Positions 4,177-33,065 of a stretch of 55,702 nucleotides of DNA are shown here, in pieces. Source of the stretch: Candidatus Fermentibacterota bacterium (GTDB taxonomy: Bacteria > JAFGKV01); assembly GCA_016928395.1 (NCBI GenBank), contig JAFGKV010000324.1, forward strand, positions 1 to 55,702. The letters are read 5' to 3'. The translations under genes were made by a program, and so were the position numbers. Position 1 is the stretch's first letter. Every line of letters starts with the position of its first letter. A model generated the notes under the pieces. The model was not told the origin of the DNA and ran no database searches. It was given only the letters and a program-made list of their open reading frames with translations.

Positions 4177-4274
4177 GGGAGTACACAGGAGCCTGGTGGT
4201 CCTCCTGGACTTCAAATCCAGTGTGGGGTGGTAAACACGCCCTGGGTGGGTTCGATTCCCATGTGCTCCCGCCA
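4177..4274 (+). tRNA. selC: tRNA-Sec (anticodon UCA)
   Basis: A 98-nt tRNA with the hallmarks of bacterial selenocysteine tRNA. It has an 8-bp acceptor stem (GGGAGTAC with GTGCTCCC), discriminator G, encoded CCA, and an anticodon arm CTGGA-CTTCAAA-TCCAG with UCA at 4212-4214. A long extra arm and the TTCGATTC T-loop follow. The anticodon arm matches that of E. coli selC. It shows that the organism decodes some UGA codons as selenocysteine. No selA, selB, selD or obvious selenoprotein gene is in this window. Confidence 0.95.
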
Positions 4275-16516: not shown

Positions 16517-18649
16517 ATGCCTGACTTCAGAATACGAGAGCACCCCGTTTTGGCTATCCCTGAATCCCCACCCGTTCCCTTCTTCTGGCAAGGAAGAGAG
16601 CTCTTTGCCCGCGAAGGAGAGATGATCGCCTCGGCGCTCTTCGCCAACGGGATCCGCGTGTTTGGTCACCACACCAAGGACCGCGCCCCCTTGGGTATCT
16701 TCTGCGCCAACGGTCAATGTGCCCAGTGCTCGGTTATGGCGGATGGCTTGGCAGTGAAGTCGTGTATGGTGCCGGTCAAGCCCGGGATGCGGGTCGAACC
16801 GCTAAGTGACAGGCCTTTGCTGCCTGACGTTCCCTTCGAAATGACGTTTCACCCTATCCAGACGGTGGAGGTTGAGTGCCTTGTGCTGGGGGGCGGCCCC
16901 GCCGGTCTTTCCGCAGCCGTTGAATTGGGAAAGGCCGGCGTCGGCGTACTCATCGTGGACGACAAACACGCCCTGGGCGGCAAGCTCGTGTTGCAGACGC
17001 ACAAGTTTTTCGGGTCCATCGAAGCCTGCCATGCCGGTACTAGAGGCATTGATATTGCAGAACGGCTGGAGAATGAAGTCAGAGGGTTCGAGAGCATCCG
17101 TGTTTGGATGGATTCCGTGGCATTGGCCGTGTTTGCCGATCGCAAAGTCGGCGTCCTCCGCCAGGGACACTATGTAGTGGTTCGCCCCCAGGTTCTCCTG
17201 GTCGCTACCGGAGCTCGAGAGAAGTCGCTGGTGTTCAAGGGCAACACCTTGCCAGGGGTCTACGGCGCCGGTGCATTCCAGACCCTCGTCAACCGGGATC
17301 TCGTGCGGCCTTCGGAGCGTCTGTTCGTCATCGGCGGCGGGAACGTCGGGCTCATCGCCGCGTACCATGCCCTCCAGGCCGGCATCGAGGTGGTGGGTCT
17401 CTGCGAGGCGCTCCCCGAGTGCGGCGGCTACAAGGTACACAAGGACAAGCTGCACCGCATGGGAGTCCCCATCTACACCTCCCACAGTGTCGTGTCCGCC
17501 AATGGGAGCAAGGAAGTCGAGTCGGTCACCATCGCGCGGCTCGATCCTTCCTGGCGGTCTATACCGGGCACGGAGAGGACGTTTGCCTGCGACACCATTC
17601 TTGTCGCGGTGGGGCTTGACCCCTGCGATGAGTTCCTCAAGAAGGCCAAGGAGTATGGGCTCCCTGTCTACGGTGCCGGTGATGCCGAGGAGATCGCTGA
17701 AGCCTCCGCGGCGATGTTCACCGGGAAGATCCGGGGACTTCAGATTGCGAAGGCGCTGGGGCGCGATGTCGGTGAAGTGCCGCCCGAGTGGCACAAGACC
17801 GCCGAGGTTCTCAAGTCTCGGCCTGGGGCAACGGTGACCGAGGAGATACCGTCGGAGCGCAGCGGGGTGTTTCCCGTGTTCCACTGCAGCCAGGAAATCC
17901 CGTGCAATCCCTGTACGTCCATATGCCCGCAGCACGCGATCCGTATTGAGGGCGACGAGATTCTGGGGTTGCCAACCTTTGTCAGGGACGGCTGCATCGG
18001 TTGTGAGCAGTGCGTTGCCATCTGTCCAGGGCTGGCGGTGACGCTGGTTGACTACCGCAAAGGCGCCGACGAGGCCACCGTGACCATACCCTTCGAGTTC
18101 ACTCGACAGCGGATAAAGGAGGGCGACACAGTGACGGTGCTGGACACCGATGGCAATGTTCTGGGCAATGTGCCCGTCACCAAGGTACGTGAACCGAAAT
18201 TCGCAGATCACGCGCTCATGGTTCAGGTGAAAGCCCCCGCTGAGTTCGCGACCCTCATTGCCGGCATCAGAGTACAGGAGCCCTGGGTCGGCGAACCCCT
18301 GGAAGAGATGATCGAACGCATTGAGGATGACGAGATCGTGTGCCGCTGTGAGCGAGTCACGGCGGGAGAAATCCGTTCGCTGATCCGGACAGGCCTGCGC
18401 GACCTGAACGAGTTAAAAGGCCTGACGCGCGCTGGCATGGGTGCCTGCGGCGGCAAGACATGCCCCAACCTCATGAAGCGATTGTTCCGGGAGGAGGGCG
18501 TGGCCCTGGCGGAGGTGACAGACCTGACCCAGCGTCCGCTCATCATGGAAGTTCCCCTAGGGGCATTCGCCGGCGTCGTCACGGGCACCGGTCCGGTGAG
18601 GGATGTGCCGCCGATCCACACGGTCGCCGCCCACGAAGGAGGGGTTTGA
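16517..18649 (+). CDS. Multi-cofactor amino-acid dehydrogenase large subunit (HcnA-HcnB-ferredoxin-BFD fusion)
   Basis: A 710-residue fusion. In order: a plant-type 2Fe-2S domain (about 1-110; Cys63, 68, 71 and 83), an FAD-binding Rossmann fold (GGGPAG at 125-130), an NAD-type Rossmann fold (IGGGNVG, about 270), a ferredoxin with two 4Fe-4S motifs (CNPCTSICP and CIGCEQCVAICPG, about 455-505), and a BFD-type 2Fe-2S domain (CRCE and GACGGKTCP, about 610-650). The family includes HcnA/HcnB of hydrogen cyanide synthase, the opine oxidase subunits and the alpha subunit of dye-linked proline dehydrogenases. Electrons from the partner flavoprotein encoded next would pass through these clusters. Substrate is unknown; hydroxyproline, proline or another imino or amino acid is likeliest. 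GGAGG precedes the ATG. Confidence 0.85.
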   Translation: MPDFRIREHPVLAIPESPPVPFFWQGRELFAREGEMIASALFANGIRVFGHHTKDRAPLGIFCANGQCAQCSVMADGLAVKSCMVPVKPGMRVEPLSDRPLLPDVPFEMTFHPIQTVEVECLVLGGGPAGLSAAVELGKAGVGVLIVDDKHALGGKLVLQTHKFFGSIEACHAGTRGIDIAERLENEVRGFESIRVWMDSVALAVFADRKVGVLRQGHYVVVRPQVLLVATGAREKSLVFKGNTLPGVYGAGAFQTLVNRDLVRPSERLFVIGGGNVGLIAAYHALQAGIEVVGLCEALPECGGYKVHKDKLHRMGVPIYTSHSVVSANGSKEVESVTIARLDPSWRSIPGTERTFACDTILVAVGLDPCDEFLKKAKEYGLPVYGAGDAEEIAEASAAMFTGKIRGLQIAKALGRDVGEVPPEWHKTAEVLKSRPGATVTEEIPSERSGVFPVFHCSQEIPCNPCTSICPQHAIRIEGDEILGLPTFVRDGCIGCEQCVAICPGLAVTLVDYRKGADEATVTIPFEFTRQRIKEGDTVTVLDTDGNVLGNVPVTKVREPKFADHALMVQVKAPAEFATLIAGIRVQEPWVGEPLEEMIERIEDDEIVCRCERVTAGEIRSLIRTGLRDLNELKGLTRAGMGACGGKTCPNLMKRLFREEGVALAEVTDLTQRPLIMEVPLGAFAGVVTGTGPVRDVPPIHTVAAHEGGV

Positions 18650-19859: not shown

Positions 19860-22800
19860 CTATCGCACTACCGTCACCTTGCCTTCATGGCGTTGTCTCT
19901 CGCCGGTTCGGGCGCTGGTTGCCTCGGCCCGGTAGAGGTAGACCCCGTTGGCAACGCGGTCACCATCGCGGTCGTCGCATTCCCAGACGATGGCGTCGTG
20001 TCGGGCGGGCGCAACACTGGTCGGTCCCAGGATCTGTACTAGCCGGCCCGTGACCGTGTAGATCCGGATCGTCGCGGTGGCTTCGTGGCTCGCGGAGACC
20101 AGGAAGCTCGTTCTCCCCGGTGCCGGCGAGGGTATGGGGAGCACCTGCTGGACGCGGAAGTCCCTGGTGAGGATCTCAATTCCGGTGCTGACGAGGTTAT
20201 TCGCCTCATCCCGCTCCGGTACCAGTTGCGCCGCATCGATCCACACATACAGGTCGACACGTCCCGCGGCCGTATCGGGAGTCGCCCAGTGCAGGGTCAT
20301 GGTCGCCGTGTCACCGGGCCCGAGGCCCTGTTCCGGCGTCACCGTATGCAGCAGTTTGGCGGTCTCGGCCTGCCCAGGCGAGGGATCGCCTCGATACAGC
20401 GCCACGCTATAGAGCGGCGCCGGCCGCTCCCCACTGTTGCGTACGCTTACTGTCACCGTGACCGTATCTCCCGCCAGGGGGAGAAGAGGTTGGGCCAGCA
20501 CATCCCCTTCGGCCTCCAGTTCTGCGGGCCACACGGCCACGACCTGCACAGTGTCTGACTCATTGCCTGGGACCCCGTCGGTCGGAAGACAGGCGGCCAC
20601 CATGCTCCAGCCGGAGGTGCCATGCGGCACGCCCCAGGTGAGAGTCGTCGTCGATGATTCGCCCGGCGCGGGAGGGGTGAGCACAACAGCCTTCGCCAGG
20701 GAGTCTCCGGGGACGCTCCGCAGCTCAACCCACGCGCTGTCTGGCGTGACCTCTCCGGCATTCCCCACCATGACCAAAGCGGATACCGTTTCACCCACGG
20801 TCACCGTGTCGGCAGCCAGTGTGATCTCCTGCAGCATTAGGTCGGGCGGATACTTGGCGCGCACCGTGACGGTGCAGGAGGCCTCATTGTTATCAAGCCG
20901 CTGTTCCTCCACGGGGGTGCTGACCGTGGCCCGGAATGTGAACAGGCCCGGGTGCACTACCAACGATGTGCTCTCACTCCGGGCTTCTCCTCCGGCCAAC
21001 GCCGGGATGACGAGGCTGTCCACCGGGCTCCATGAGCCATCTGTTCCGCGGTGCCACCACACGCGTACGGTGTGCGCCTCCGCCTCACCCACATTGGCGA
21101 TATTGCTAAGCAGTGTCAGTATCTCACCATCGACCAGAGCCGTGGCCGAGGGCGTCAGGGAGACGGCAAGGTCTGTTAGGGTCATGACATACACTGGGCG
21201 GCTCTCCACATTGTTGTCTTCGTTGGTCTCGCTAACCTCATCGAACGAGTCCACCACGACCTCCACCATGTGATCACCCGAGGATTCCCCCCGTTCCCAC
21301 GCCCACGAATGGGTAAGAGTCTCGGAGCTCCTCCCGGCGGCATCGAATCGCCATTCCCGGATCACGGCCCCGTCCAGGTGCAATAGGACGCTGAAGGAGT
21401 CTGCCGGGATCATGCCGCCATTGCGCACGATGAAGGTCACTGTGGCGCTGTCGCCTTCCACAGGATTCGGCGGAGCCAGCGAGAAGCTCGATACATACAG
21501 GTCAGGACCGCTGACCACCTCCAGGGTGACCCATTGCACATTGTCGATCTCGTTCAGTTCTGCCACCATGCCCCCGCGGTCAACCACGAGAAAGAATGAA
21601 TGCAATCCCACCTGGCCCAAGGTGTCCCAGGCAACGGTCATCGAGTCGATGCCGGCACCGGGCGTTGACTCACGACTCTCAACTGCGAGCGTGGTGGAGC
21701 CGGTGCTGTCGGGATGACCGTGGTAGATGGCGACTTCATAGGATGGAGTGGGAGATTCGCCGGCATTGTGCCACACCCCGGTGAGCGAGAGGGAGTCCCC
21801 TTCGGGAGGGCGGGCGTTGGAGGGAGTGATCCGATCCGCCACCAGTTCGGCGCGCGAGGCGATATGTACCGAGGCCAGAGCGGTATTGTTCGTCTCGTCC
21901 ACTTCCTGGATTTCATCCCGGGAATCCACCGTGACTCGCACCACATGATCGCCGGCATCGAGGTCGCCGATCGGCCAGACTGCGTGGACCGTGGTGAATC
22001 CTCCCCGGGCCAGGGTGTCAACAGGAAGGTCGGCCAACTCCTGCAGCACACCGCTGCTGAGGGCAGAATCCACGAAGGTGACACGAAATGGTCCCACTGG
22101 CGCCGTGCCGACATTGGTGATGCCCACAGTGAACGTAATGACGCTATCCAGCACTTCGGGAGCAAGGGGTGCATGGGTGAGCATGCTGTCGGCCGTGGCG
22201 AGGTCGGGAACCGGGTCGATGACTGCGTAGCCTGTCATGCCCCGATTGTTGCCGCGGTAGCCCTCCTGCTGGGCCGTGTCGGGATTGGCCCAAGAGTAGA
22301 TGATCCTGTCACCCGCGGCACCTGCGGTTACTGTAGTCCACGCTACGGTGGTGCTGTCGCGGGCACTCAGGGGAGGCACGATCAGGGTTGTGAGGACAAA
22401 GCCCCCACTGTCGGGATCGGCATCGAAAAGCCGCAGGGTCGTGGCCGGGCCGGCATCGATGCCGTCGTTGCGCACCGTAAGCCGAATCACGACGGTATCG
22501 CCGGACACGATGGGTTGCGGGTCGACGCTGATGAGCCCCATGGTCCAGTCCGGCCGTTCGGCCAAGGCCAGCGGGATCAGCGGGTCGCCCAGCCACGTGA
22601 AGAAGAGCGGTGAGGCCATTGGGTCGGCCCACCAGTTCTGCATCTCCGGCGCAAGCTTGGCGTAGGTGAGCGCTACGATGGGTGTTCGTTCCTGGTATCG
22701 GAAGATTGATTCGAACTGACGCTTGGCCATGTAGTAGTCGGGCGTCGTGTGCCCCCATCCGGTGGAACCCCAGAATCCCATGGCCCCATGGGGTTGCCAC

Positions 22801-25502
22801 AACCAGATCTCGCCGAAGCTGTCAATCTCCGGGTTGGCAAATCTCCCCGTGTGACACGTCAGGCTGTTCACCATGGGGAGCATCCGGGTATTCGTCAGGT
22901 CGTTCTCTACGTCGCTGGCCCAGAACATGGTTTCCCACGTCCAACTGGCACCGTGGCCGATGTAGGTCGCGTGGGCGACACCGACATCGTTGAAGATGTA
23001 CTGCAGTGATTCGTCTTCCGTTGTTTCGAACTCATTGTTGTAATGGACACTATCCGGTCGGGAGAACAGGATGGCGTTGTAGTGGGCGGGTTCGGGAAGC
23101 ACCCAGTCATCGATGAGGTTCTGACATTGACTCCGGAAGAAACTCCGGCTGTCATTACCATTATTGTCAAGATGACCACCGGCGATGAGGAACACATTCT
23201 CTCGCCACAAGCCCGGATCCCAGGTGCCCCCTGCATAGCCTAGGAGTTTGTCCACCACGATGCGCGCGGTGTCGGCATTCTCCACCGGGATCCGTGCCAG
23301 GTAGAGATCGGGTAATAGGTCGACGCTATCGGCATCGTCCACATTGGCGAAGTAGTCATCCATCACAGGGTTGCCCAAGGAGGGTACGAAGTTGCGATGA
23401 GCCGGATCGGAGGTGGGGCTGTTGAGCTTGTAGTCCCACGAGGCGTCGCCGAACAAGAGCACGAAGCAGGGCGGAGTGGGCCAGTTCACGTAGGCGTCCT
23501 CCAGGAAGTCCCGGATTCCCCTCGGATCGAATACCCCGAAACGATACTCATCATACACGTCTTGCACATCCACCAGCATGGCCGCGAGGGGGCTGCCGTT
23601 GAAGACCCTCCCCGGCGTGAGCCGGCCGGCCTCTTCCAGGAGGTCCGCATGGGAGATCACCACGAAATCGGCTCCCAGGGAGGCATGCAGGCCGGAAGGG
23701 GTATCCTCTACGATGCTCATCACGGGCTCCCGGCGATTCAGGGCCAGGGCCAGGTAGCGGGTAGAATCCAGGGTCGAGTCTCTGAATTTCACCGCCCATC
23801 CGCCCACGCCCAGGTCGGTTTCCTGGAATCCTTGCAGAATCTCGCCGTGGGTCAGGTCAACGAGCATCTGCCCGGCATCGCTGAAGCCGGTCACGGAATA
23901 CAGGTAGATCCCCGGGCCGCTCTGCTGCGGGCTCCAGAACGCCAACGAGTCGTTCCACGCCCCGTAGGAGCGCCAATAGTCGACCTCGAACCAGTCGGTG
24001 TAGGCGCCATCCATCCATCCGTATTGGGTATCTCCCGTGATCTCGACGGCAAAATGGTTCTCTATGCCCAACGCTCCATTGTTCGGCCACTGGTCGGGAT
24101 TGTAGAAGGTATCGGTGCGGGAGTCGTAGAACTTCTCATCGTTGGCGTACCACTGGAGGTGGGCCAACTGCACATTGTTGAGATAGACGACCGCGTGATG
24201 GTGGGGATTCTGCATAAGGTCCGGATGGGTGTAGCCCCTGAGGCTGGCCCGCAGATGCACCGGATCGGTGACATCGGCTAGCCCCCGCAACGTAAAGGAG
24301 TAGTAAACCCTCCCGTCTCCCGGCCGCAGCGGTGGCCCCCAGAACCACTCGGTGCCGTAGCGATCGCCACTTATGGCGCCCACGTTGGGCACGAAGGGGT
24401 TGAGATCCCGCTCCAGGTGAACCTGCTCGCGAAACTGCGAGGGGCGGATGCCGCTGCCGCCTGCCTCCACAATCCGTACCGGCATCCGCAGCCCTGTCGC
24501 TGTTCCCCAGGTCAGCCAGTACACATTGGCCTCGGTGTACTCGCCGCCCACGGGAAGAAGCCGGTTGCCCCAATCCTCGCGGTAGACCGGCGCACCCACG
24601 AACTCGACGCGGTCCTGGGGATCCAGCCTGCCGTCTGACTCCCCCACCACGTGAATCGGGATCTCATTACCCCCGACCAGCATCTGAATCGTGGCCGGGT
24701 TCACTGACGCGATGGGCATACCCGCGGCCTGAAGCTGTGCGCCGGTTACTGAGTAGTAGGCTTCATGGTCCACCGTGAGCTTCAAAGCCGGCGAGGGCGG
24801 ATCCCACTGCCGGATATCGCGGAGGAGCATGGCCGGAGGCCCCTGCCGCCACTCACGCGCCGCTTCCCAGTTCACCACCAGATGGGAGAGCACAGGCTCC
24901 ATGAAGTCGTGCGGCAGGGCTTGCCTGGCAGGGGTGCGTGCGCCACCCTTGGCCGTCTTCACCACGACCGTCATGGACCGGTCAAGGCAGAGCAGTTTCT
25001 GAGAAGGGTAGTACTGGAAGGGACTTACCTCGATGTAAGCGATATCCAGCGACCGAACACGCCCGGTGCGTAGGATTCGGGCCCGGGTGGTCGGGTACGG
25101 CTCGCCCACCGCGGCAGGATCAGCGGGGATGTTCAGCGGTTCCATACCCCTGCCCTGGGACCGGGGCAGCACCACGGTGCGCGGCGCAGGCGGAATGTTG
25201 ATATCGCGATAGCTGACGCGGTCGGATGCGACAACCTCTACCTCGGGCCGGGTACCGGGCGGAATGGCCACGGCGAAATGGTACACGGGCAGGTCAGGCT
25301 CGCCCGCCATGCCCCGGGGTACCGCACCCTCAAGCCGCGCGGCTCGGTAGCTGGTGCCACGGATCACGGTCGACTCCCAGGACGGGTCAGGTGCCTGGAT
25401 CCGTAGTTCGGTTCCTGCGATCGTGCTGTAGACCAGCGAGAGGTGATCGATGGGCTCTGCCGTGCCGGCCAGCAGCCCGAGCAAACATACTCCAATGATC
25501 AT
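19860..25502 (-). CDS. Giant secreted C25 (gingipain-like) peptidase with CARDB repeats and FlgD-like C-terminus
   Basis: A 1880-residue exported protein. A short hydrophobic signal segment (IIGVCLLGLLAGTAE) starts it, followed by a propeptide-like region and a gingipain-type caspase-fold domain (about 620-970). The likely catalytic His is in ATYIGHGASW (about 849) and the catalytic Cys in NSLTCHTGRF (about 882). About seven CARDB-like beta-sandwich repeats follow, several with the DxxxExxExxNN motif (for example DEIQEVDETNN, DEVSETNEDNN, VPERDEANN). The last 90 residues form a FlgD/T9SS-like domain (TIRIYTVTGRLV ... NGVYLYRAEA). In Bacteroidota such tails direct proteins through the type IX system; here the secretion route is inferred. 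Gingipain-like proteins can also be PorU-type sortases, but the long CARDB array argues for a surface protease. It lies 20 nt after the glycosyltransferase gene. Confidence 0.85.
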   Translation of the reverse strand: MIIGVCLLGLLAGTAEPIDHLSLVYSTIAGTELRIQAPDPSWESTVIRGTSYRAARLEGAVPRGMAGEPDLPVYHFAVAIPPGTRPEVEVVASDRVSYRDINIPPAPRTVVLPRSQGRGMEPLNIPADPAAVGEPYPTTRARILRTGRVRSLDIAYIEVSPFQYYPSQKLLCLDRSMTVVVKTAKGGARTPARQALPHDFMEPVLSHLVVNWEAAREWRQGPPAMLLRDIRQWDPPSPALKLTVDHEAYYSVTGAQLQAAGMPIASVNPATIQMLVGGNEIPIHVVGESDGRLDPQDRVEFVGAPVYREDWGNRLLPVGGEYTEANVYWLTWGTATGLRMPVRIVEAGGSGIRPSQFREQVHLERDLNPFVPNVGAISGDRYGTEWFWGPPLRPGDGRVYYSFTLRGLADVTDPVHLRASLRGYTHPDLMQNPHHHAVVYLNNVQLAHLQWYANDEKFYDSRTDTFYNPDQWPNNGALGIENHFAVEITGDTQYGWMDGAYTDWFEVDYWRSYGAWNDSLAFWSPQQSGPGIYLYSVTGFSDAGQMLVDLTHGEILQGFQETDLGVGGWAVKFRDSTLDSTRYLALALNRREPVMSIVEDTPSGLHASLGADFVVISHADLLEEAGRLTPGRVFNGSPLAAMLVDVQDVYDEYRFGVFDPRGIRDFLEDAYVNWPTPPCFVLLFGDASWDYKLNSPTSDPAHRNFVPSLGNPVMDDYFANVDDADSVDLLPDLYLARIPVENADTARIVVDKLLGYAGGTWDPGLWRENVFLIAGGHLDNNGNDSRSFFRSQCQNLIDDWVLPEPAHYNAILFSRPDSVHYNNEFETTEDESLQYIFNDVGVAHATYIGHGASWTWETMFWASDVENDLTNTRMLPMVNSLTCHTGRFANPEIDSFGEIWLWQPHGAMGFWGSTGWGHTTPDYYMAKRQFESIFRYQERTPIVALTYAKLAPEMQNWWADPMASPLFFTWLGDPLIPLALAERPDWTMGLISVDPQPIVSGDTVVIRLTVRNDGIDAGPATTLRLFDADPDSGGFVLTTLIVPPLSARDSTTVAWTTVTAGAAGDRIIYSWANPDTAQQEGYRGNNRGMTGYAVIDPVPDLATADSMLTHAPLAPEVLDSVITFTVGITNVGTAPVGPFRVTFVDSALSSGVLQELADLPVDTLARGGFTTVHAVWPIGDLDAGDHVVRVTVDSRDEIQEVDETNNTALASVHIASRAELVADRITPSNARPPEGDSLSLTGVWHNAGESPTPSYEVAIYHGHPDSTGSTTLAVESRESTPGAGIDSMTVAWDTLGQVGLHSFFLVVDRGGMVAELNEIDNVQWVTLEVVSGPDLYVSSFSLAPPNPVEGDSATVTFIVRNGGMIPADSFSVLLHLDGAVIREWRFDAAGRSSETLTHSWAWERGESSGDHMVEVVVDSFDEVSETNEDNNVESRPVYVMTLTDLAVSLTPSATALVDGEILTLLSNIANVGEAEAHTVRVWWHRGTDGSWSPVDSLVIPALAGGEARSESTSLVVHPGLFTFRATVSTPVEEQRLDNNEASCTVTVRAKYPPDLMLQEITLAADTVTVGETVSALVMVGNAGEVTPDSAWVELRSVPGDSLAKAVVLTPPAPGESSTTTLTWGVPHGTSGWSMVAACLPTDGVPGNESDTVQVVAVWPAELEAEGDVLAQPLLPLAGDTVTVTVSVRNSGERPAPLYSVALYRGDPSPGQAETAKLLHTVTPEQGLGPGDTATMTLHWATPDTAAGRVDLYVWIDAAQLVPERDEANNLVSTGIEILTRDFRVQQVLPIPSPAPGRTSFLVSASHEATATIRIYTVTGRLVQILGPTSVAPARHDAIVWECDDRDGDRVANGVYLYRAEATSARTGERQRHEGKVTVVR

Positions 25503-26783: not shown

Positions 26784-27875
26784 TCAGCTCCACACCCCCG
26801 GGATTGCCCGGCCGCACGAGGGGCAGGCGCCTTCCTTCAGGGTGTTGGACAGGACTGTGAAGCCGACGCGGCGGATGAGCGTAGTCCCGCAGCCGGGGCA
26901 CAGAGTGTTCTCGTATCCCAGGCCGGGCACATTGCCTAAGTAGACGAAATTGAGGCCGGCATTCTTGGCGATACGGTAGCAGCGTTCCAGAGTGGACACA
27001 GGGGTCCGCGGGAGATTCCTGATGCGGTAAGTCGGATGGAACTGTGAGAAATGCACGGGAACATCGGGACCCAACTCGTCGACGATCCATTCCGACAATG
27101 CCAGGATCTCTCCTTCGCCGTCATTCTGTGTCGGCAGGATCAGATCCACGATCTCCAGCCATGTCCCCTGCTCCTTGATCCACCGAAGCGAATCCAGGAC
27201 CGGCTGAAGCTTCCCGGCGCAGAGCTTCTGATAGAAGGTGTCGGTGAAGGCCTTGAGGTCGACCTTGACGGCATCCAGCCGGGGAAGCAGCTCCAGAAGA
27301 GGCTCCTTGAGGATATAGCCATTGGAGATCATGACCGAGCGCACGCCCAGTCTGTGACCCTCGATGGCCGAATCGAGCATGTACTCATAGAAGATGACAG
27401 GCTCGGAATACGTGTAGGCGATGCTGGCGCAGGATCGTCCACGGGCCGCCGCCGCGACGTCGGTGGGGAACAGGTCCGTGCTTCGAATCTGTTCGGGCCG
27501 GAATTGGGAGATGTCCCAGTTCTGACAGAACTTACACTCCATGTTGCATCCCGCGGTGGCGATGGAGAAGGCGGTCGTGCCGGGGAGAAAGTGAAAAAGC
27601 GGTTTCTTCTCGATGGGATCGACATTCGCCGCCACTGCCCGACCGTACACCAAGGTGACATAGCGGCCACCCACGTTCTCTCTCACTCCGCAATAGCCGC
27701 GCTCGCGATCCGCAACCTCGCAGCCCCGGGGGCACAGCGTACAGGCCACCCGTTGTTGTTCAATGGGATTCCAGTACTTCGCCTCCCGCACGAAACGGCC
27801 GTGTTCATCGTCACCGGCGAAGGCGGGTGCGGCCGCAAGACCGGCAAGGCCGCTCAAAAAGCAGCGACGGTTCAC
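26784..27875 (-). CDS. amrS: AmmeMemoRadiSam system radical SAM enzyme with Tat signal
   Basis: Radical SAM protein of the three-part AmmeMemoRadiSam system, whose reaction is not established. The cluster motif CNMECKFC lies at about 110-117. A family-specific N-terminal Cys set (CTLCPRGC ... GYCGVRENV) and C-terminal CPGC/CPSC zinc-binding motifs are present. In front of them sits MNRRCFLSGLAGLAAAPAFA, an RR-containing signal peptide of Tat type with an AxA cleavage site. An exported radical SAM enzyme would need clusters assembled before export and SAM outside the cytoplasm. The GTG overlaps the stop of the DUF362 gene. No gene follows for about 180 nt. Confidence 0.92.
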   Translation of the reverse strand: MNRRCFLSGLAGLAAAPAFAGDDEHGRFVREAKYWNPIEQQRVACTLCPRGCEVADRERGYCGVRENVGGRYVTLVYGRAVAANVDPIEKKPLFHFLPGTTAFSIATAGCNMECKFCQNWDISQFRPEQIRSTDLFPTDVAAAARGRSCASIAYTYSEPVIFYEYMLDSAIEGHRLGVRSVMISNGYILKEPLLELLPRLDAVKVDLKAFTDTFYQKLCAGKLQPVLDSLRWIKEQGTWLEIVDLILPTQNDGEGEILALSEWIVDELGPDVPVHFSQFHPTYRIRNLPRTPVSTLERCYRIAKNAGLNFVYLGNVPGLGYENTLCPGCGTTLIRRVGFTVLSNTLKEGACPSCGRAIPGVWS

Positions 27876-28840
27876 ACAATCACCTCGCGCACGGTGATCG
27901 CGTCCCGACGGTGTTCACCTAAGCCCATGAGGCCGGCGGTCTCAATCCACCGGGGAGGTCGCCGGTCTGCCTCCAGGGTCGGTAGCTCCCGGATTGCACG
28001 TTGGTCTTCGATGAGGTCGGCGGCGATTCGATCGGCCGCCACAGGATCGAACGAGACCAGAATCCCATCGAATGGCCATGCCCAGGCCGGCTTGTAGGAG
28101 GGCCCGCCGTGGCATTGGGCAGTGGCGCAGTCGAGAACAGAGAGGACTAAGCGCTCCCGGATCGGTGGGAGCGAGGCCACGTGGGCCACATAGGGATTGC
28201 AGTTGTAGTCATGGTATTTGTTCGGGTTGTGGATGGTGCCGTACAGGTTTTTCAGCACACACGAGATACCTGCGAGATCGTGATCCTTGAGCATGCCGAC
28301 GCTCACCAACCCGTCGCTGTTCAGCAAGGCATTGGAGAGGAGGCTGCCCACGTCGCCAGACTCGTAGATGGTTCGGCCATAGCCTACCGCATCGGTGCCG
28401 ATGATGGTGAACGAGCCTCGAGCAGTGAACCCCGCCCGGGTAAGCTCCCTCATGGTGCGCTCCCATACCGTGACTTCGCGCACGCCGACATCCCGAAGCA
28501 TGCCGGACAGCGCCTGGGCCAGCTCAGGGCTCGGAGACAGAGGCCGGCCAGCCAGGCAGTTGGCCTTGAGGCCGATCGTGTTTCTCCCGGACACGCGTTG
28601 GGCAAGGGATGTCTTGCCCAGCGTGGAGAATGCCTCCTCCAGCAAGGTCCGATACGCCCCAGTCCTGCCGTCTCCTTTCAGCTGCGAGAGGCCAACGCGG
28701 CGCACAATCACCACCGTGGAATCGGTATCAGGGCTCAGTGCCCCGGATGGCCTCCCCCCTGTTCCTCCGTCGCACGGTACATGAAACGCTCCGACCAAGG
28801 CCGCGGACGAGAGCGAGTGGACGAAGGAGCGGCGATTCAT
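27872..28840 (-). CDS. DUF362 family protein with Tat signal
   Basis: DUF362 proteins are found beside ferredoxins and AmmeMemoRadiSam genes; their biochemical role is unknown. This copy has 322 residues. It begins with the twin-arginine sequence MNRRSFVHSLSSAALVGAF and contains the family segments IGLKANCLAGRPLS, GMLKDHDLAGISCVLKNLYG and DGILVSFDPVAADRIAADLI. No 4Fe-4S ferredoxin motif is fused to it. It lies between the Memo-AMMECR1 and radical SAM genes, 66 nt after the first and overlapping the second by 4 nt (GTGA). It therefore seems to be a working partner in the same exported process. Confidence 0.88.
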   Translation of the reverse strand: MNRRSFVHSLSSAALVGAFHVPCDGGTGGRPSGALSPDTDSTVVIVRRVGLSQLKGDGRTGAYRTLLEEAFSTLGKTSLAQRVSGRNTIGLKANCLAGRPLSPSPELAQALSGMLRDVGVREVTVWERTMRELTRAGFTARGSFTIIGTDAVGYGRTIYESGDVGSLLSNALLNSDGLVSVGMLKDHDLAGISCVLKNLYGTIHNPNKYHDYNCNPYVAHVASLPPIRERLVLSVLDCATAQCHGGPSYKPAWAWPFDGILVSFDPVAADRIAADLIEDQRAIRELPTLEADRRPPRWIETAGLMGLGEHRRDAITVREVIV

Positions 28841-28906
28841 GGCGACTCTGCTCCTCGGCGCCGCAGGTCGAGGTTTCCCGGTCGCACCCTCTCCCCTCCT
28901 CGTTCC

Positions 28907-30412
28907 CTACCGCTTTTCCGCTTCAGTGAGGAGTTCATCGCCGAAGACGATAGACTCGAACTTCTCCAATGTCGCCCGCTTCCAGGCATCACGGTCAAGA
29001 CCCGCCTTGCGACCCAGTTGCTGCAGATAGGTGGGAAGGTCCCATTCCTGTTCCACCGGCACCTCGGGGAGGAACACCCCGCGACGCCCCTGTGCAGAGA
29101 GGACAAGGCCATGCCGCCCGACCTCGATCTCACCGATGTCGTGTACCGGTTCCAGTGGTGTCAGCACGCTGACCTTGAAGGATAACTCGGAGTACTCAGC
29201 CTTGTTCACGGGGTCAAACCGTGGATCCCGGAAAGCGGCAGAGAGCGCATTGTCGGCCACGGCTTCAGCGAGAGGCTTCAGACCCTCTATGTAACCGATA
29301 CACCCCCTCAGGTCGCCCCGGGCCATGAGGGTGACGAACACACCGGCGGGCTGCCGCACCGCCGGGCTCATCCGGCGTTTCCACTCCTCAAGATCCGGTC
29401 CCTTCTCTCCCCTGGCGTGGCGTTTTACTACCTCACGGGCCAGCAGCACTAGAGCGCGCTTGTCATCTTCGGGAAGAAGGAATCCTCCCCGGGGCTCGGC
29501 CGAATCCGCCGATGATGATCGGGAGAAGCCAATGGTCAGGTAGCTGACCGAACTCTCGGTATCCGGCATGACATCCAACGATGTGCTGTAGTTGATGAGT
29601 TCACCATGAACCTCCGGCCCCAGCATCTCCAAGAGCACCGAGATGGAGCCCCGGCCGCAGATGGTGTCGTGGGTACGCTGAACATACGCGTCGAACCCGG
29701 TGACGTCGCGGCGGCGAATGAGATCGGCTGCTTCGTGATTCATGGCGGCAAGCTTCTGTTGTAGATCGGCCACCGATGATGCAGCAAAGGGCGTATACTG
29801 GAATCGATCGCCGTAGTGGGTGAAATCACTGCTGACCACGATAAGGGTTTCATCGTCGACGTGGCGAGCCAGTGTCGTCGCCAAGGCCCGGCGCTCATCA
29901 GGCGTGAGGTCGCCCACCAGCACCGGTACCAAAGAGAACTCACCCAGTACGACTTGAAGGAAGGGGAGGTGAATCTCTATGGCATGTTCCCGGGCTTCGG
30001 CCTCGCGGTGTTCAGACACCAGGGGATCCTGGAGCAGGGCATCGCAGGTCGCTCGATCCACCGAGACCGTTCCCAAAGGCGTTTCGTATGCGTCGAACGG
30101 ACCGATTGCTGCGCCCCGGATCCATGCCTGATGGCTGGGCGACAGTATCATGACTTTCTGGAACCGGTCTTTGGGCACCCTGCCGTATCCATACGCAGCG
30201 GTACGGGCGGAGTACTGATATCCCGCATGGGGAATGATAAGAGCAACAAGGGAAAGATCCGGCTTTTGCGCTGCCTGGCGAAGGCATGATTCTACGTTCC
30301 GGCGAAGCTCATCCGCCCGGCCCGGGTACCATGACCCCGCCAAGACCGACGGGCGAACCTCTGCGGATCCACTCTGAATGCTTAGAAGAAGCAGCATGAT
30401 GGCGACCCTCAT
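28907..30412 (-). CDS. AmrB-AmrA fusion (Memo-like plus AMMECR1 domain), exported
   Basis: A 501-residue fusion of the other two AmmeMemoRadiSam components. A Sec-type signal (MRVAIMLLLLSIQSGSA) is followed by a Memo domain (about 20-290). Its motifs are AGSWYPG, IIPHAGYQYS, the EHAIEIHLPFLQ loop and VVSSDFTHYGDRF, with the His and Cys (DTICGRGSI) of the dioxygenase-like fold. The AMMECR1 domain (about 310-495) contains GVFVTLMARGDLRGCIG and AFRDPRFDPV. Both domains look intact. The ATG overlaps the gpmI stop as ATGA. The open frame extends 110 codons upstream inside gpmI, but the signal peptide fixes the true start. Confidence 0.93.
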   Translation of the reverse strand: MRVAIMLLLLSIQSGSAEVRPSVLAGSWYPGRADELRRNVESCLRQAAQKPDLSLVALIIPHAGYQYSARTAAYGYGRVPKDRFQKVMILSPSHQAWIRGAAIGPFDAYETPLGTVSVDRATCDALLQDPLVSEHREAEAREHAIEIHLPFLQVVLGEFSLVPVLVGDLTPDERRALATTLARHVDDETLIVVSSDFTHYGDRFQYTPFAASSVADLQQKLAAMNHEAADLIRRRDVTGFDAYVQRTHDTICGRGSISVLLEMLGPEVHGELINYSTSLDVMPDTESSVSYLTIGFSRSSSADSAEPRGGFLLPEDDKRALVLLAREVVKRHARGEKGPDLEEWKRRMSPAVRQPAGVFVTLMARGDLRGCIGYIEGLKPLAEAVADNALSAAFRDPRFDPVNKAEYSELSFKVSVLTPLEPVHDIGEIEVGRHGLVLSAQGRRGVFLPEVPVEQEWDLPTYLQQLGRKAGLDRDAWKRATLEKFESIVFGDELLTEAEKR

Positions 30413-32076
30413 GGTGTGGTTCCTAATGGCGTGACAAGACTGGGCTGATAGTCCTCCGGAGCATTGTACCCCAAGAGGTTCAGGATCGTTGCGGCCACAT
30501 TGGCCAAGCCGGCATCGTGCGGTGGCATCAGGGCATACCCAAGGGTCTGGCGGGTGTCCGCCACCACGAAGCGTACAGGGTTGAGAGAATGGCTGGTGAG
30601 AGGCAATGGGTTCCCCGACGCATCGCGAAGGATCGTTCCGTTCTTTCCCAGTTGGTACATCTGGTCGGCATTGCCGTGATCCGCTGTGACGATCATCAGG
30701 CCGTCGGCTCGTCGAACCTCTCGCCAGATGCGCCCGAGGCACAGATCCACCGCCTCGACCGCCAGGATCGTCGCATCCCGATCTCCGGTGTGCCCCACCA
30801 TATCGCCGTTGGCGAAGTTCACCCGTATAAAGGGAAACCGGCGGGACCTGATTCCGGCGATGACCTCATCGGCAACTTCGGCCGCCTTCATCCACGGACG
30901 CTGTTCGAACGGCACGCGGTCGGAGGGCACTTCGATGTAGCTCTCTCGTGCGGCATCGAACTTGCCGCTGCGATTCCCGTTCCAGAAGTAGGTGACATGC
31001 CCGAACTTCTGGGTTTCCGCGACGGCGAGTTGGTCAATGCCCGCATGCACCAAGTATTCGCTCACGGTCCGCTCTATGGCTGGGGGGTCGACGAGGTACC
31101 GTGACGGGATGTGCAGATCGCCGTCATACTCCATCATGCCCGCGTACAGGACACGAGGGCGGACACCTCGGTCGAAGTGCTCGAAGTCATCCTCCTCGAA
31201 AGTCCGGCTGATCTCGATGGCTCGATCGCCGCGGAAGTTGAAGAAGAGCACAACGTCCCCGTCATGCATGGCGCCTACGGGCTCATCGTCACGGCCGATG
31301 ACGAAGGGGGGGAGAAACTGGTCACTGAGGCCGGGCTCCTCGGTGCGGTAGGTGCTGATTGCGGTTTCGGCGTCGGGGAAACGCCGCGCCTGACCGTGGA
31401 CATGCGCCTTCCAACCCCGCTCAACGATCTGCCAGTCAGCCTCATAGCGATCCATGGTGGTCACCATGCGGCCACCGCCGCTGGCGATGAGGTAGTCGCA
31501 ACCATTGGCGCGACAGGCTGCGAGCTTGTCCTCCAAGGGATGCACAAATTCCAAGGCACTGGTTTCCGGCACATCGCGACCATCCAGCAGGATATGCACC
31601 CGGGCGCGATGGACTTCCTGCTGGCAGGCGCGGTCAAGGATGGTGAAGAGATGGCGGATGTGGCTGTGGACATTGCCGTCGGACAGCAGGCCGATCAGAT
31701 GGAGAGTGCCGCCCTGAAAGCACCGGTCCACCATGTCGCGCCACAGCTTCGTCCCGAACGCGCTTCCTTCCTCCAGGGCCTTGTTCACCAGCTTTGCTCC
31801 CTGGTCAAACACCCGGCCGGCACCCAAGGCATTGTGGCCCACCTCCGAGTTCCCCATATCATCGTCACCGGGAAGGCCGACCGCCGTTCCATGAGCCTTC
31901 AGAACGGTGTTCGGAAACGAGGCCACAAGCCCGTCGAGTACCGGGGTGCGGGCTACATGAACGGCGTCGCTCTCATCCTGCCTTCCCACTCCCACTCCAT
32001 CCATGATCACGAGAACGACGGGGCCGTCCGGCCGCGGCGGCCCTGCCCATGACGACAAGTGGATGTGGCTGTTCAC
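30409..32076 (-). CDS. gpmI: 2,3-bisphosphoglycerate-independent phosphoglycerate mutase
   Basis: Interconverts 3- and 2-phosphoglycerate using two Mn ions and a phosphoserine intermediate. It has 555 residues. Metal ligand Asp is in VIMDGVGVG, active Ser77 in DMGNSEVGHNALGAGR, and C-terminal metal ligands in NGDMVGHTGD and VTADHGNADQM. All signatures of the alkaline-phosphatase-superfamily iPGM are present. The GTG has GGAGAG upstream and overlaps the stop of the family 9 glycosyltransferase gene. The longer frame upstream lies inside that gene and is discarded. It is unusual to see this glycolytic enzyme in a glycan/AmmeMemoRadiSam gene run; this may be simple operon fusion. Confidence 0.95.
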   Translation of the reverse strand: MNSHIHLSSWAGPPRPDGPVVLVIMDGVGVGRQDESDAVHVARTPVLDGLVASFPNTVLKAHGTAVGLPGDDDMGNSEVGHNALGAGRVFDQGAKLVNKALEEGSAFGTKLWRDMVDRCFQGGTLHLIGLLSDGNVHSHIRHLFTILDRACQQEVHRARVHILLDGRDVPETSALEFVHPLEDKLAACRANGCDYLIASGGGRMVTTMDRYEADWQIVERGWKAHVHGQARRFPDAETAISTYRTEEPGLSDQFLPPFVIGRDDEPVGAMHDGDVVLFFNFRGDRAIEISRTFEEDDFEHFDRGVRPRVLYAGMMEYDGDLHIPSRYLVDPPAIERTVSEYLVHAGIDQLAVAETQKFGHVTYFWNGNRSGKFDAARESYIEVPSDRVPFEQRPWMKAAEVADEVIAGIRSRRFPFIRVNFANGDMVGHTGDRDATILAVEAVDLCLGRIWREVRRADGLMIVTADHGNADQMYQLGKNGTILRDASGNPLPLTSHSLNPVRFVVADTRQTLGYALMPPHDAGLANVAATILNLLGYNAPEDYQPSLVTPLGTTP

Positions 32077-33065
32077 GGCGTGCACTCTCCAGGGTTCGAT
32101 TCCGGGGTAACCCCCCGCATCATGCGCAGGCACTGCTTTAGGACGTGATCGACATCGATGCGGGTAAGGCAGTTGGTGTGGCCCAAAGGACACGATCGGG
32201 CAAAGCAAGGGCTGCACGGCTCCTGTCTGTACACCACATGTACCCGAGGCCCCATGGGACGGGTCCACAATGGCTTGGTGGAACCAAACACCACCACTAC
32301 CGGAGTGCCGATCCAGGCGGCGAGATGAGCAGCGCCCGAGTCATTGCCGACAAAAACCCTCGCCCGTCGAAGGAGCGAGGCCAGGTCAGACAGGGTCGTG
32401 CGGCCGGCCTGGTTTTCCACGCGGGGCCCCGCGGCGCGGGCGATTACGTCGATGGCTGCAGACTCCGCCGCGGTTCCCGTCAGCACGATGGGAAATCCAG
32501 TAATGGCATGTAACTCGCGGGCGAGGGCGGCATACCGCTCATCCGGCCAGCGTTTGGCGGGGCCGAAGGCGGCGCTCGGCGCCATGACGATGCACGGGGC
32601 GTCGGCGGCTGCATCTCCCAATCCATCTGCTGAAGGCCACTCCGCCGGTGCCGCAAGCCCCATGGCCGCCGGCAGGCTCAGGTACTCAACGCTTTGATGA
32701 ATGCGTTTCCGAGCCGAGGGTGCCCGGATGGAATAGAGTGCCCGTGCCGGCCCCGAATTCCACCCGACCCGGGTGGGTGCGCTGGAGCCGAACGCGATGA
32801 TCCCGGCCCGACGCGAACGCAGAAAGCTGACGACCGCGAAAGGACGGGCCGACCGGAGTTCGCGGATCAGGCGAAGGGTGCCGATCAAGGAACGGCTCGC
32901 CAGTATGACATGGTCGGCGACTCTCCCGGCGATGGCCTGCACACTCGGGCGCGCGACCACGATGCAGGGAGATGCCAGGCCATCGCGCACCGCGACCATG
33001 GCGGGCAGGGCCATGATGATGTCGCCCAACCAGTTGGGGGCAAGGATTACCACCGGAGGCTTCAC
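32073..33065 (-). CDS. Family 9 glycosyltransferase (heptosyltransferase WaaF-like)
   Basis: GT-B enzyme of the ADP-heptose:LPS heptosyltransferase family, 330 residues. VVILAPNWLGDIIMALPAM is the N-terminal family motif with the catalytic Asp. FGPAKRWPDERYAALA and FVGNDSGAAHLAAWIGTPVV form the C-terminal nucleotide-sugar site. The C-terminal CSPCFARSCPLGHTNCLTRI is typical of WaaF proteins. The product is probably the inner core of a lipopolysaccharide or another lipid-linked glycan. The GTG overlaps the flippase stop (GTGA); the open frame upstream of it lies within the flippase gene. Confidence 0.92.
   Translation of the reverse strand: MKPPVVILAPNWLGDIIMALPAMVAVRDGLASPCIVVARPSVQAIAGRVADHVILASRSLIGTLRLIRELRSARPFAVVSFLRSRRAGIIAFGSSAPTRVGWNSGPARALYSIRAPSARKRIHQSVEYLSLPAAMGLAAPAEWPSADGLGDAAADAPCIVMAPSAAFGPAKRWPDERYAALARELHAITGFPIVLTGTAAESAAIDVIARAAGPRVENQAGRTTLSDLASLLRRARVFVGNDSGAAHLAAWIGTPVVVVFGSTKPLWTRPMGPRVHVVYRQEPCSPCFARSCPLGHTNCLTRIDVDHVLKQCLRMMRGVTPESNPGECTP

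Follow-up and report, generated by a model that had tools for sequence, protein, structure and literature searches.

Where does the AmmeMemoRadiSam system act when its proteins appear to start with export signals? The question is raised by three genes at positions 26784 to 30412 of the window (the whole stretch analysed here, 55,702 nucleotides of contig JAFGKV010000324.1 from a Candidatus Fermentibacterota bacterium). They encode a Memo-AMMECR1 fusion (AmrBA), a DUF362 protein and AmrS, the radical S-adenosylmethionine (SAM) enzyme of the system. Radical SAM enzymes are regarded as cytosolic, the cytosol being where SAM and strong reductants occur, and a literature search for exported ones yielded nothing relevant. 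A preliminary description of the locus had nevertheless proposed that all three proteins are exported. We assessed this by comparing the N-termini of relatives, the AmrS tree and the presence of TatC. The results argue that this branch of the AmmeMemoRadiSam system is extracytoplasmic, a reading that we favour with some reserve. Rather than a new system, it is a newly seen, widely distributed exported variant of a known one; new here are the LarA fold predicted for DUF362 and the use of DUF362 as a marker of one AmrS subclade.

The locus encodes AmrBA, DUF362 and AmrS in a probable operon

The genes form a single run on the minus strand in the order gpmI-like, amrBA, DUF362, amrS. The gpmI-like open reading frame (30409..32268; 2,3-bisphosphoglycerate-independent phosphoglycerate mutase, named from sequence) shares 4 bases with amrBA (28907..30412; 501 residues). 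The amrBA ATG sits within the gpmI-like stop codon (ATGA), which supports the start at 30412. Further downstream, the GTG start of amrS (26784..27875; 363 residues) overlaps the stop of the DUF362 gene (27872..28840; 322 residues). Since amrBA and amrS both start inside preceding stops, translation is probably coupled and the three genes probably constitute one coupled operon. The same gene order is found in many phyla, indicating that the arrangement is not due to chance, and the gpmI-like gene lies directly upstream in L016 and L017 as well. With 14 DUF362 genes in the 4.8 Mb of this genome, the likelihood of a chance DUF362-AmrS pairing is negligible.

AmrBA scored 221 bits against TIGR04336 (AmrB, cut-off 26) and 167 bits against TIGR04335 (AmrA, cut-off 99), and was matched by both Pfam Memo and AMMECR1. 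The AmrB and AmrA domains are thus encoded by a single fused gene, as in nearly all relatives compared. AmrS reached 398 bits against TIGR04337 (cut-off 220). The DUF362 protein reached 65.9 bits against PF04015 (gathering cut-off 24), a family matched by 22/22 aligned DUF362 relatives. The gene identities, the AmrB-AmrA fusion and the DUF362 partner of the preliminary description were all recovered, the families far above their cut-offs. It had also called the reaction of the system unknown; the TIGR models are indeed of the hypoth_equivalog type, and no reaction was found in the literature searched.

The genome holds further copies of some components. A second AmrS lacks a signal and is 44% identical to the one in the operon, and a second Memo protein (L002, contig C343) is not fused to AMMECR1. 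A PqqD-like part was recognised by eye ahead of the Memo domain of this second protein. A search of the assembly found no AMMECR1 besides that of AmrBA (28943..29443), so the one AMMECR1 that was found comes with a putative signal peptide.

N-terminal signals and comparison with relatives support export

The N-terminus of AmrS, VNRRCFLSGLAGLAAAPAFA (27816..27875), displays an RR motif and a hydrophobic core and is followed by G at a cleavage site placed by eye (AFA/G). That of the DUF362 protein, MNRRSFVHSLSSAALVGAF, is of the same type, and RR is also found at the N-termini of its relatives. In both proteins an RR-x-(F/L) motif precedes the hydrophobic core, and the genome encodes one TatC, so that transport by the twin-arginine translocation (Tat) pathway is predicted. 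AmrBA starts with MRVAIMLLLLSIQSGSA (30362..30412), then E after a putative cleavage site; a charged n-region, a hydrophobic core and this site are discernible by eye, but the signal is short. Its relatives mostly begin with a hydrophobic or lipobox-type segment, and their general secretory (Sec) or lipobox signals are clearer than that of the window protein. Judged from these sequences, it is strongly supported that AmrS and DUF362 carry Tat signals, and AmrBA probably has a Sec-type signal.

The sample consisted of the 80 AmrS loci closest to the window protein, picked for their similarity to it, and of additional AmrS copies taken from 40 of these genomes; the tree was built by a quick method. 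The 80 loci span about 16 phyla and belong for the most part to uncultured bacteria; in nearly all of them, AmrS begins either with an RR motif and a hydrophobic stretch or with a membrane segment. In the tree (127 rows), the 86 signal-bearing rows form one branch with L033 as sole intruder, and the signal label changes twice, as compared to 34.8 times in shuffles. L078 and L081 mark a tandem pair of exported AmrS genes within one locus, 43-51% identical to the window AmrS. Cytosolic paralogues from the same genomes have no N-terminal signal; their branches are separate and their starts immediately precede the first Cys, which favours export of the other branch. The median number of residues before this Cys is 20 in cytosolic and 61 in exported AmrS, and a start codon is missing within 30 codons of it in 26/86 exported but 0/40 cytosolic sequences. 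By the criterion of the preliminary description itself, cytoplasmic homologues aligned to downstream starts would have spoken against export; homologues of the branch carry instead the same kind of signals. Chance or a mis-assigned start was rejected on the basis of the conserved signals, the overlapping genes and the lack of downstream start codons in those 26 relatives.

TatC was searched in 76 genomes. TatC-positive genomes have an RR/RK motif in 51/53 AmrS rows, TatC-negative ones in 6/31 (Fisher 1.4e-13, a value not corrected for phylogeny and overstated by related rows). In L026, one of the two TatC-positive exceptions, an RR motif lies a little ahead of the chosen start. In Tat-less lineages, the N-terminus of AmrS is a plain hydrophobic (Sec-type) segment. 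Finally, three AmrS proteins from Anaerolineae (L039, L041 and L065) contain a CxxCH motif between the signal and the radical SAM core. CxxCH is the heme-c attachment motif, for which there would be no use inside the cytoplasm. Together, the single signal-bearing branch, the RR type that tracks TatC and the Sec or lipobox signals of the AmrBA relatives agree with the export first proposed, and the three proteins are very probably all exported.

AmrS and AmrBA retain their catalytic and metal-binding residues

The CX3CX2C radical SAM cluster motif of AmrS (C110, C114 and C117) is encoded at 27525..27548. In all 86 exported sequences (86/86), its Cys and four N-terminal Cys are invariant, and a C-terminal Cys4 ribbon is conserved at 0.98-1.00 (n=86). 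Many non-Cys core residues are as invariant as in the cytosolic forms. The exported proteins carry in addition a C-terminal GxW signature that is mostly missing from cytosolic AmrS. The best structural match to the AlphaFold model of AmrS (pLDDT 84) was pyruvate formate-lyase activating enzyme (PFL-AE), with a Z score of 21.7 over residues 76-313. The corresponding equivalog model, TIGR02493, gave 51 bits for a cut-off of 232. As modelled, AmrS therefore shares a PFL-AE-like core fold but is not a member of the PFL activating enzymes.

In AmrBA, the Memo domain (29531..30343) contains the metal ligands H62, H94 and C252, which correspond to H49, H81 and C244, the iron and copper ligands of human MEMO1 (PMC11081632). 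These three residues are invariant in the compared AmrBA sequences, as are D196, H199 and E142, and C371, the Cys of the LRGCIG motif of the AMMECR1 domain.

DUF362 has a predicted LarA-like fold and marks one AmrS subclade

The predicted model of the DUF362 protein (pLDDT 90, with low confidence confined to the signal region) matched LarA catalytic domains at Z 14-17; with malate racemase 6d6z, 206 residues were aligned at Z 16.9. On the strength of this model, the protein has the LarA catalytic-domain fold. It also contains the motif H187-x2-AG-x-S-x3-K197, whose spacing is that of H174...K184 in LarA; the LarA motif was seen in L189 and in the sequences of solved LarA structures. H187 and K197 are invariant, and the AG and S between them are mostly kept. 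Offsets of the structural alignment to 5huq (47 to 34 and 281 to 270), which is not a residue-level alignment, agree with this pairing. In LarA, His174 is the catalytic His and Lys184 the cofactor-tethering Lys (PMC11770544), and DUF362 probably keeps both. The position of LarA His108 is apparently Asp/Glu in DUF362, with H204 or H210 as candidate third ligands. The similarity is one of fold: a PDB sequence profile search with DUF362 returned no homology, and Lar_N gave no sequence-level match for the window protein.

DUF362 lies directly upstream of AmrS in 23/25 testable loci of one starred AmrS subclade (22 counted by script, plus L016 with its zero gap) and in 0/46 exported loci outside it. 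DUF362 upstream of AmrS is thus the mark of one subclade. A LarC-like gene directly precedes the cytosolic AmrS in L160 and L164, whereas the corresponding site of the window genome (L012) has none. A general AmrS-LarC link was dropped, as these two, from the closest relatives of the window genome, are the only cases in which LarC adjoins cytosolic AmrS.

Neighbours of exported AmrS and other features of the window

A membrane protein with a spermidine-synthase-like domain is encoded near AmrS, often convergently, in about 32/80 loci, a count that excludes wrong-frame neighbouring reading frames in the GC-rich loci L023, L026 and L032. According to a simple and crude count (hydropathy and positive-inside), this domain is placed outside in 23/25 proteins, and the two other cases stem from a mis-set domain boundary. 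The fused major facilitator superfamily/spermidine synthase (NF037959), the known type to which this frequent neighbour compares, does not adjoin the operon in the window genome. As candidates for such a partner, two weak PF01564 matches were set aside, neither being like the AmrS-linked type.

A DsbD_2/CcdA-type gene was found near AmrS in 14 loci (L042, L054, L055, L061, L063, L068, L071, L077, L080, L083, L085, L086, L089 and L094), 14/14 in genomes with no TatC match over the cut-off. In these loci, AmrS has a Sec-type N-terminus and retains its Cys. The loci are phylogenetically clustered and phylogeny-corrected contrasts give almost nothing, so that the tracking of TatC absence by DsbD_2 is a lead only. 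Genes named from sequence as ResB/ResC-like occur close to AmrS in L041 and L091; in L039, a ResB-like gene, likewise named, is upstream of it. A SagB-like nitroreductase with a signal-like N-terminus is encoded directly upstream of exported AmrS in three Endomicrobia loci (L046, L056 and L062); in L047, one lies farther away and on the other strand.

Elsewhere in the window, a 1880-residue open reading frame (19860-25502, minus strand) resembles the type IX secretion sortase PorU, scoring 216.7 bits where the equivalog cut-off is 420; repeats and a sorting-like domain at its C-terminus were seen by eye. A selenocysteine tRNA (tRNA-Sec) gene (4177-4274) stands just ahead of nusA, infB, truB and pnp. 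A 710-residue flavoprotein (16517-18649) resembles sarcosine oxidase alpha-type proteins below the curated cut-off.

Site of action and alternative explanations

If the locus belongs to an extracytoplasmic branch, AmrS and DUF362 would take up their cofactors and fold in the cytoplasm, then cross the membrane folded via Tat. AmrBA would cross via Sec and fold outside, where its Memo domain could bind iron or copper. Because a Sec substrate folds after transport, the three folded proteins could meet only outside the cytoplasmic membrane, and a joint site of action there appears quite likely. There AmrS, PFL-activase-like with intact cluster residues, would make a radical on a protein or an envelope-bound substrate; the chances that it is catalytically active outside seem to us about even. 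AmrBA may perform a metal-dependent redox step, and DUF362, as a one-domain LarA-like protein, may carry out hydride transfer (dehydrogenation or epimerisation), possibly with a nickel-pincer-like cofactor. We regard this enzymatic role of DUF362 as tentative, slightly on the doubtful side of even. The substrate may be an envelope lipid, an isoprenoid or a protein, an assignment that is rather speculative. As a lead only, a 2019 study of Memo genome contexts by Burroughs and colleagues reportedly linked Memo to base and isoprenoid modification.

CxxCH inserts, ResB/ResC-like and DsbD_2 neighbours and the outside-predicted spermidine-synthase-like domain are extra links to the envelope in relatives. 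A SAM-dependent radical pathway outside the membrane, made of exported AmrS, AmrBA, DUF362 and, in many relatives, a membrane protein with an outside-facing spermidine-synthase-like domain, is conceivable, although we would not count on it. If it exists, cells would have an extracytoplasmic supply of SAM or of a SAM product, and Fe-S clusters would be assembled or kept outside (by DsbD/CcdA-type proteins in Tat-less lineages). Action at the envelope, and the handling of SAM and Fe-S clusters outside or during export, had already been suggested from the sequence; both are inferences from export, even if AmrS keeps its catalytic Cys.

Several observations weigh against this extracytoplasmic reading. 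To our knowledge, neither SAM nor a low-potential reductant occurs outside the cytoplasm. Since AmrS signals are of the Sec type in some relatives, their Fe-S clusters would need to be built outside. The AmrBA signal of the window protein is short, and independent TatC contrasts on starred branches (about 3 pairs in the expected direction, 0 in the opposite one) do not reach significance, their number being too small. Within the DUF362 subclade, DUF362 is absent from two anammox loci (L033 and L038), and L033 also lacks a clear signal. As to the enzymatic role of DUF362, its match to the LarA motif is one of spacing, and hhalign against one LarA indicated no homology. The LarC profile had no match in the window genome (assembly 94% complete) and matches in 24/27 genomes searched, including genus and family mates, which makes a nickel-pincer cofactor doubtful here.

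The SAM and reductant problem would disappear if AmrS were a maturase that modifies or loads DUF362 in the cytoplasm, the folded pair being then co-exported by Tat. AmrS would leave the cytoplasm as a spent activase together with its active client, and radical chemistry would never take place outside. The PFL-AE-like core fits a protein-activating enzyme, and the two RR signals and the adjacent, overlapping genes fit a pair. However, AmrBA would travel by Sec and be unable to join the pair in folded form. Exported AmrS also commonly has no DUF362 upstream (0/46 loci outside the subclade have one), and several such AmrS have Sec-type signals, which need an unfolded chain. We consider this explanation unlikely.

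Less probable still is that the proteins are exported but AmrS is non-catalytic, its clusters and zinc ribbon being used, next to the iron/copper site of Memo, to transfer electrons or to handle metals. Export to a place without known SAM or reductant would then be no difficulty. Redox traffic is suggested by the CxxCH inserts and by neighbours of the DsbD_2 and ResB/ResC-like types, and human MEMO1 binds iron and copper (PMC11081632). The invariance of many core residues besides the Cys, equal to that of cytosolic AmrS, speaks against such a loss of catalysis.

That the N-termini are uncleaved anchors of cytoplasm-side catalytic domains, or that starts are mis-assigned, is very improbable: the plain hydrophobic N-termini of Tat-less lineages and the GTG/TTG starts leave some doubt, but positive N-terminal flanks predict an N-in/C-out topology, RR motifs follow TatC, only an outside location makes sense of the AmrBA lipoboxes and CxxCH inserts, and the 26/86 exported AmrS without a start codon near the first Cys contrast with 0/40 cytosolic ones.

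The extracytoplasmic reading thus remains the one we prefer. A widespread AmrS branch with both cluster residues and export signals challenges the cytosolic view of radical SAM enzymes. For Memo and AMMECR1, each with a link to human disease, it also restricts the places in which their reaction may occur. Genomes with paired exported and cytosolic AmrS lend themselves to a natural comparison of the two, and for the large, uncharacterised DUF362 family there is now an enzyme hypothesis that can be tested.

Comparison with known systems

The locus resembles known AmmeMemoRadiSam systems in that TIGR04335, TIGR04336 and TIGR04337 are all exceeded and the core Cys, the Memo ligands and LRGCIG are kept. 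It differs by the predicted export, the AmrB-AmrA fusion, DUF362 in the operon and the C-terminal GxW of AmrS. With human MEMO1 and the class III extradiol dioxygenase (LigB-like) fold, AmrBA shares the metal ligands (H62/H94/C252 for H49/H81/C244); unlike MEMO1, it is bacterial, fused to AMMECR1 and provided with a putative signal peptide. PFL-AE is the closest solved structure to the AmrS core, but AmrS is extended by a module with four Cys on the N-terminal side and by the Cys4 ribbon on the C-terminal side, and the PFLA model scores far below its cut-off. DUF362, as predicted, shares with the LarA superfamily (Pfam clan CL0471) the fold and a His/Lys spacing like that of H174/K184, but consists of one domain only and carries a Tat signal. 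Its apparent Asp/Glu at the position of His108 is reminiscent of the single-histidine LarA-like enzymes (9q3j and 9q3k, by PDB title).

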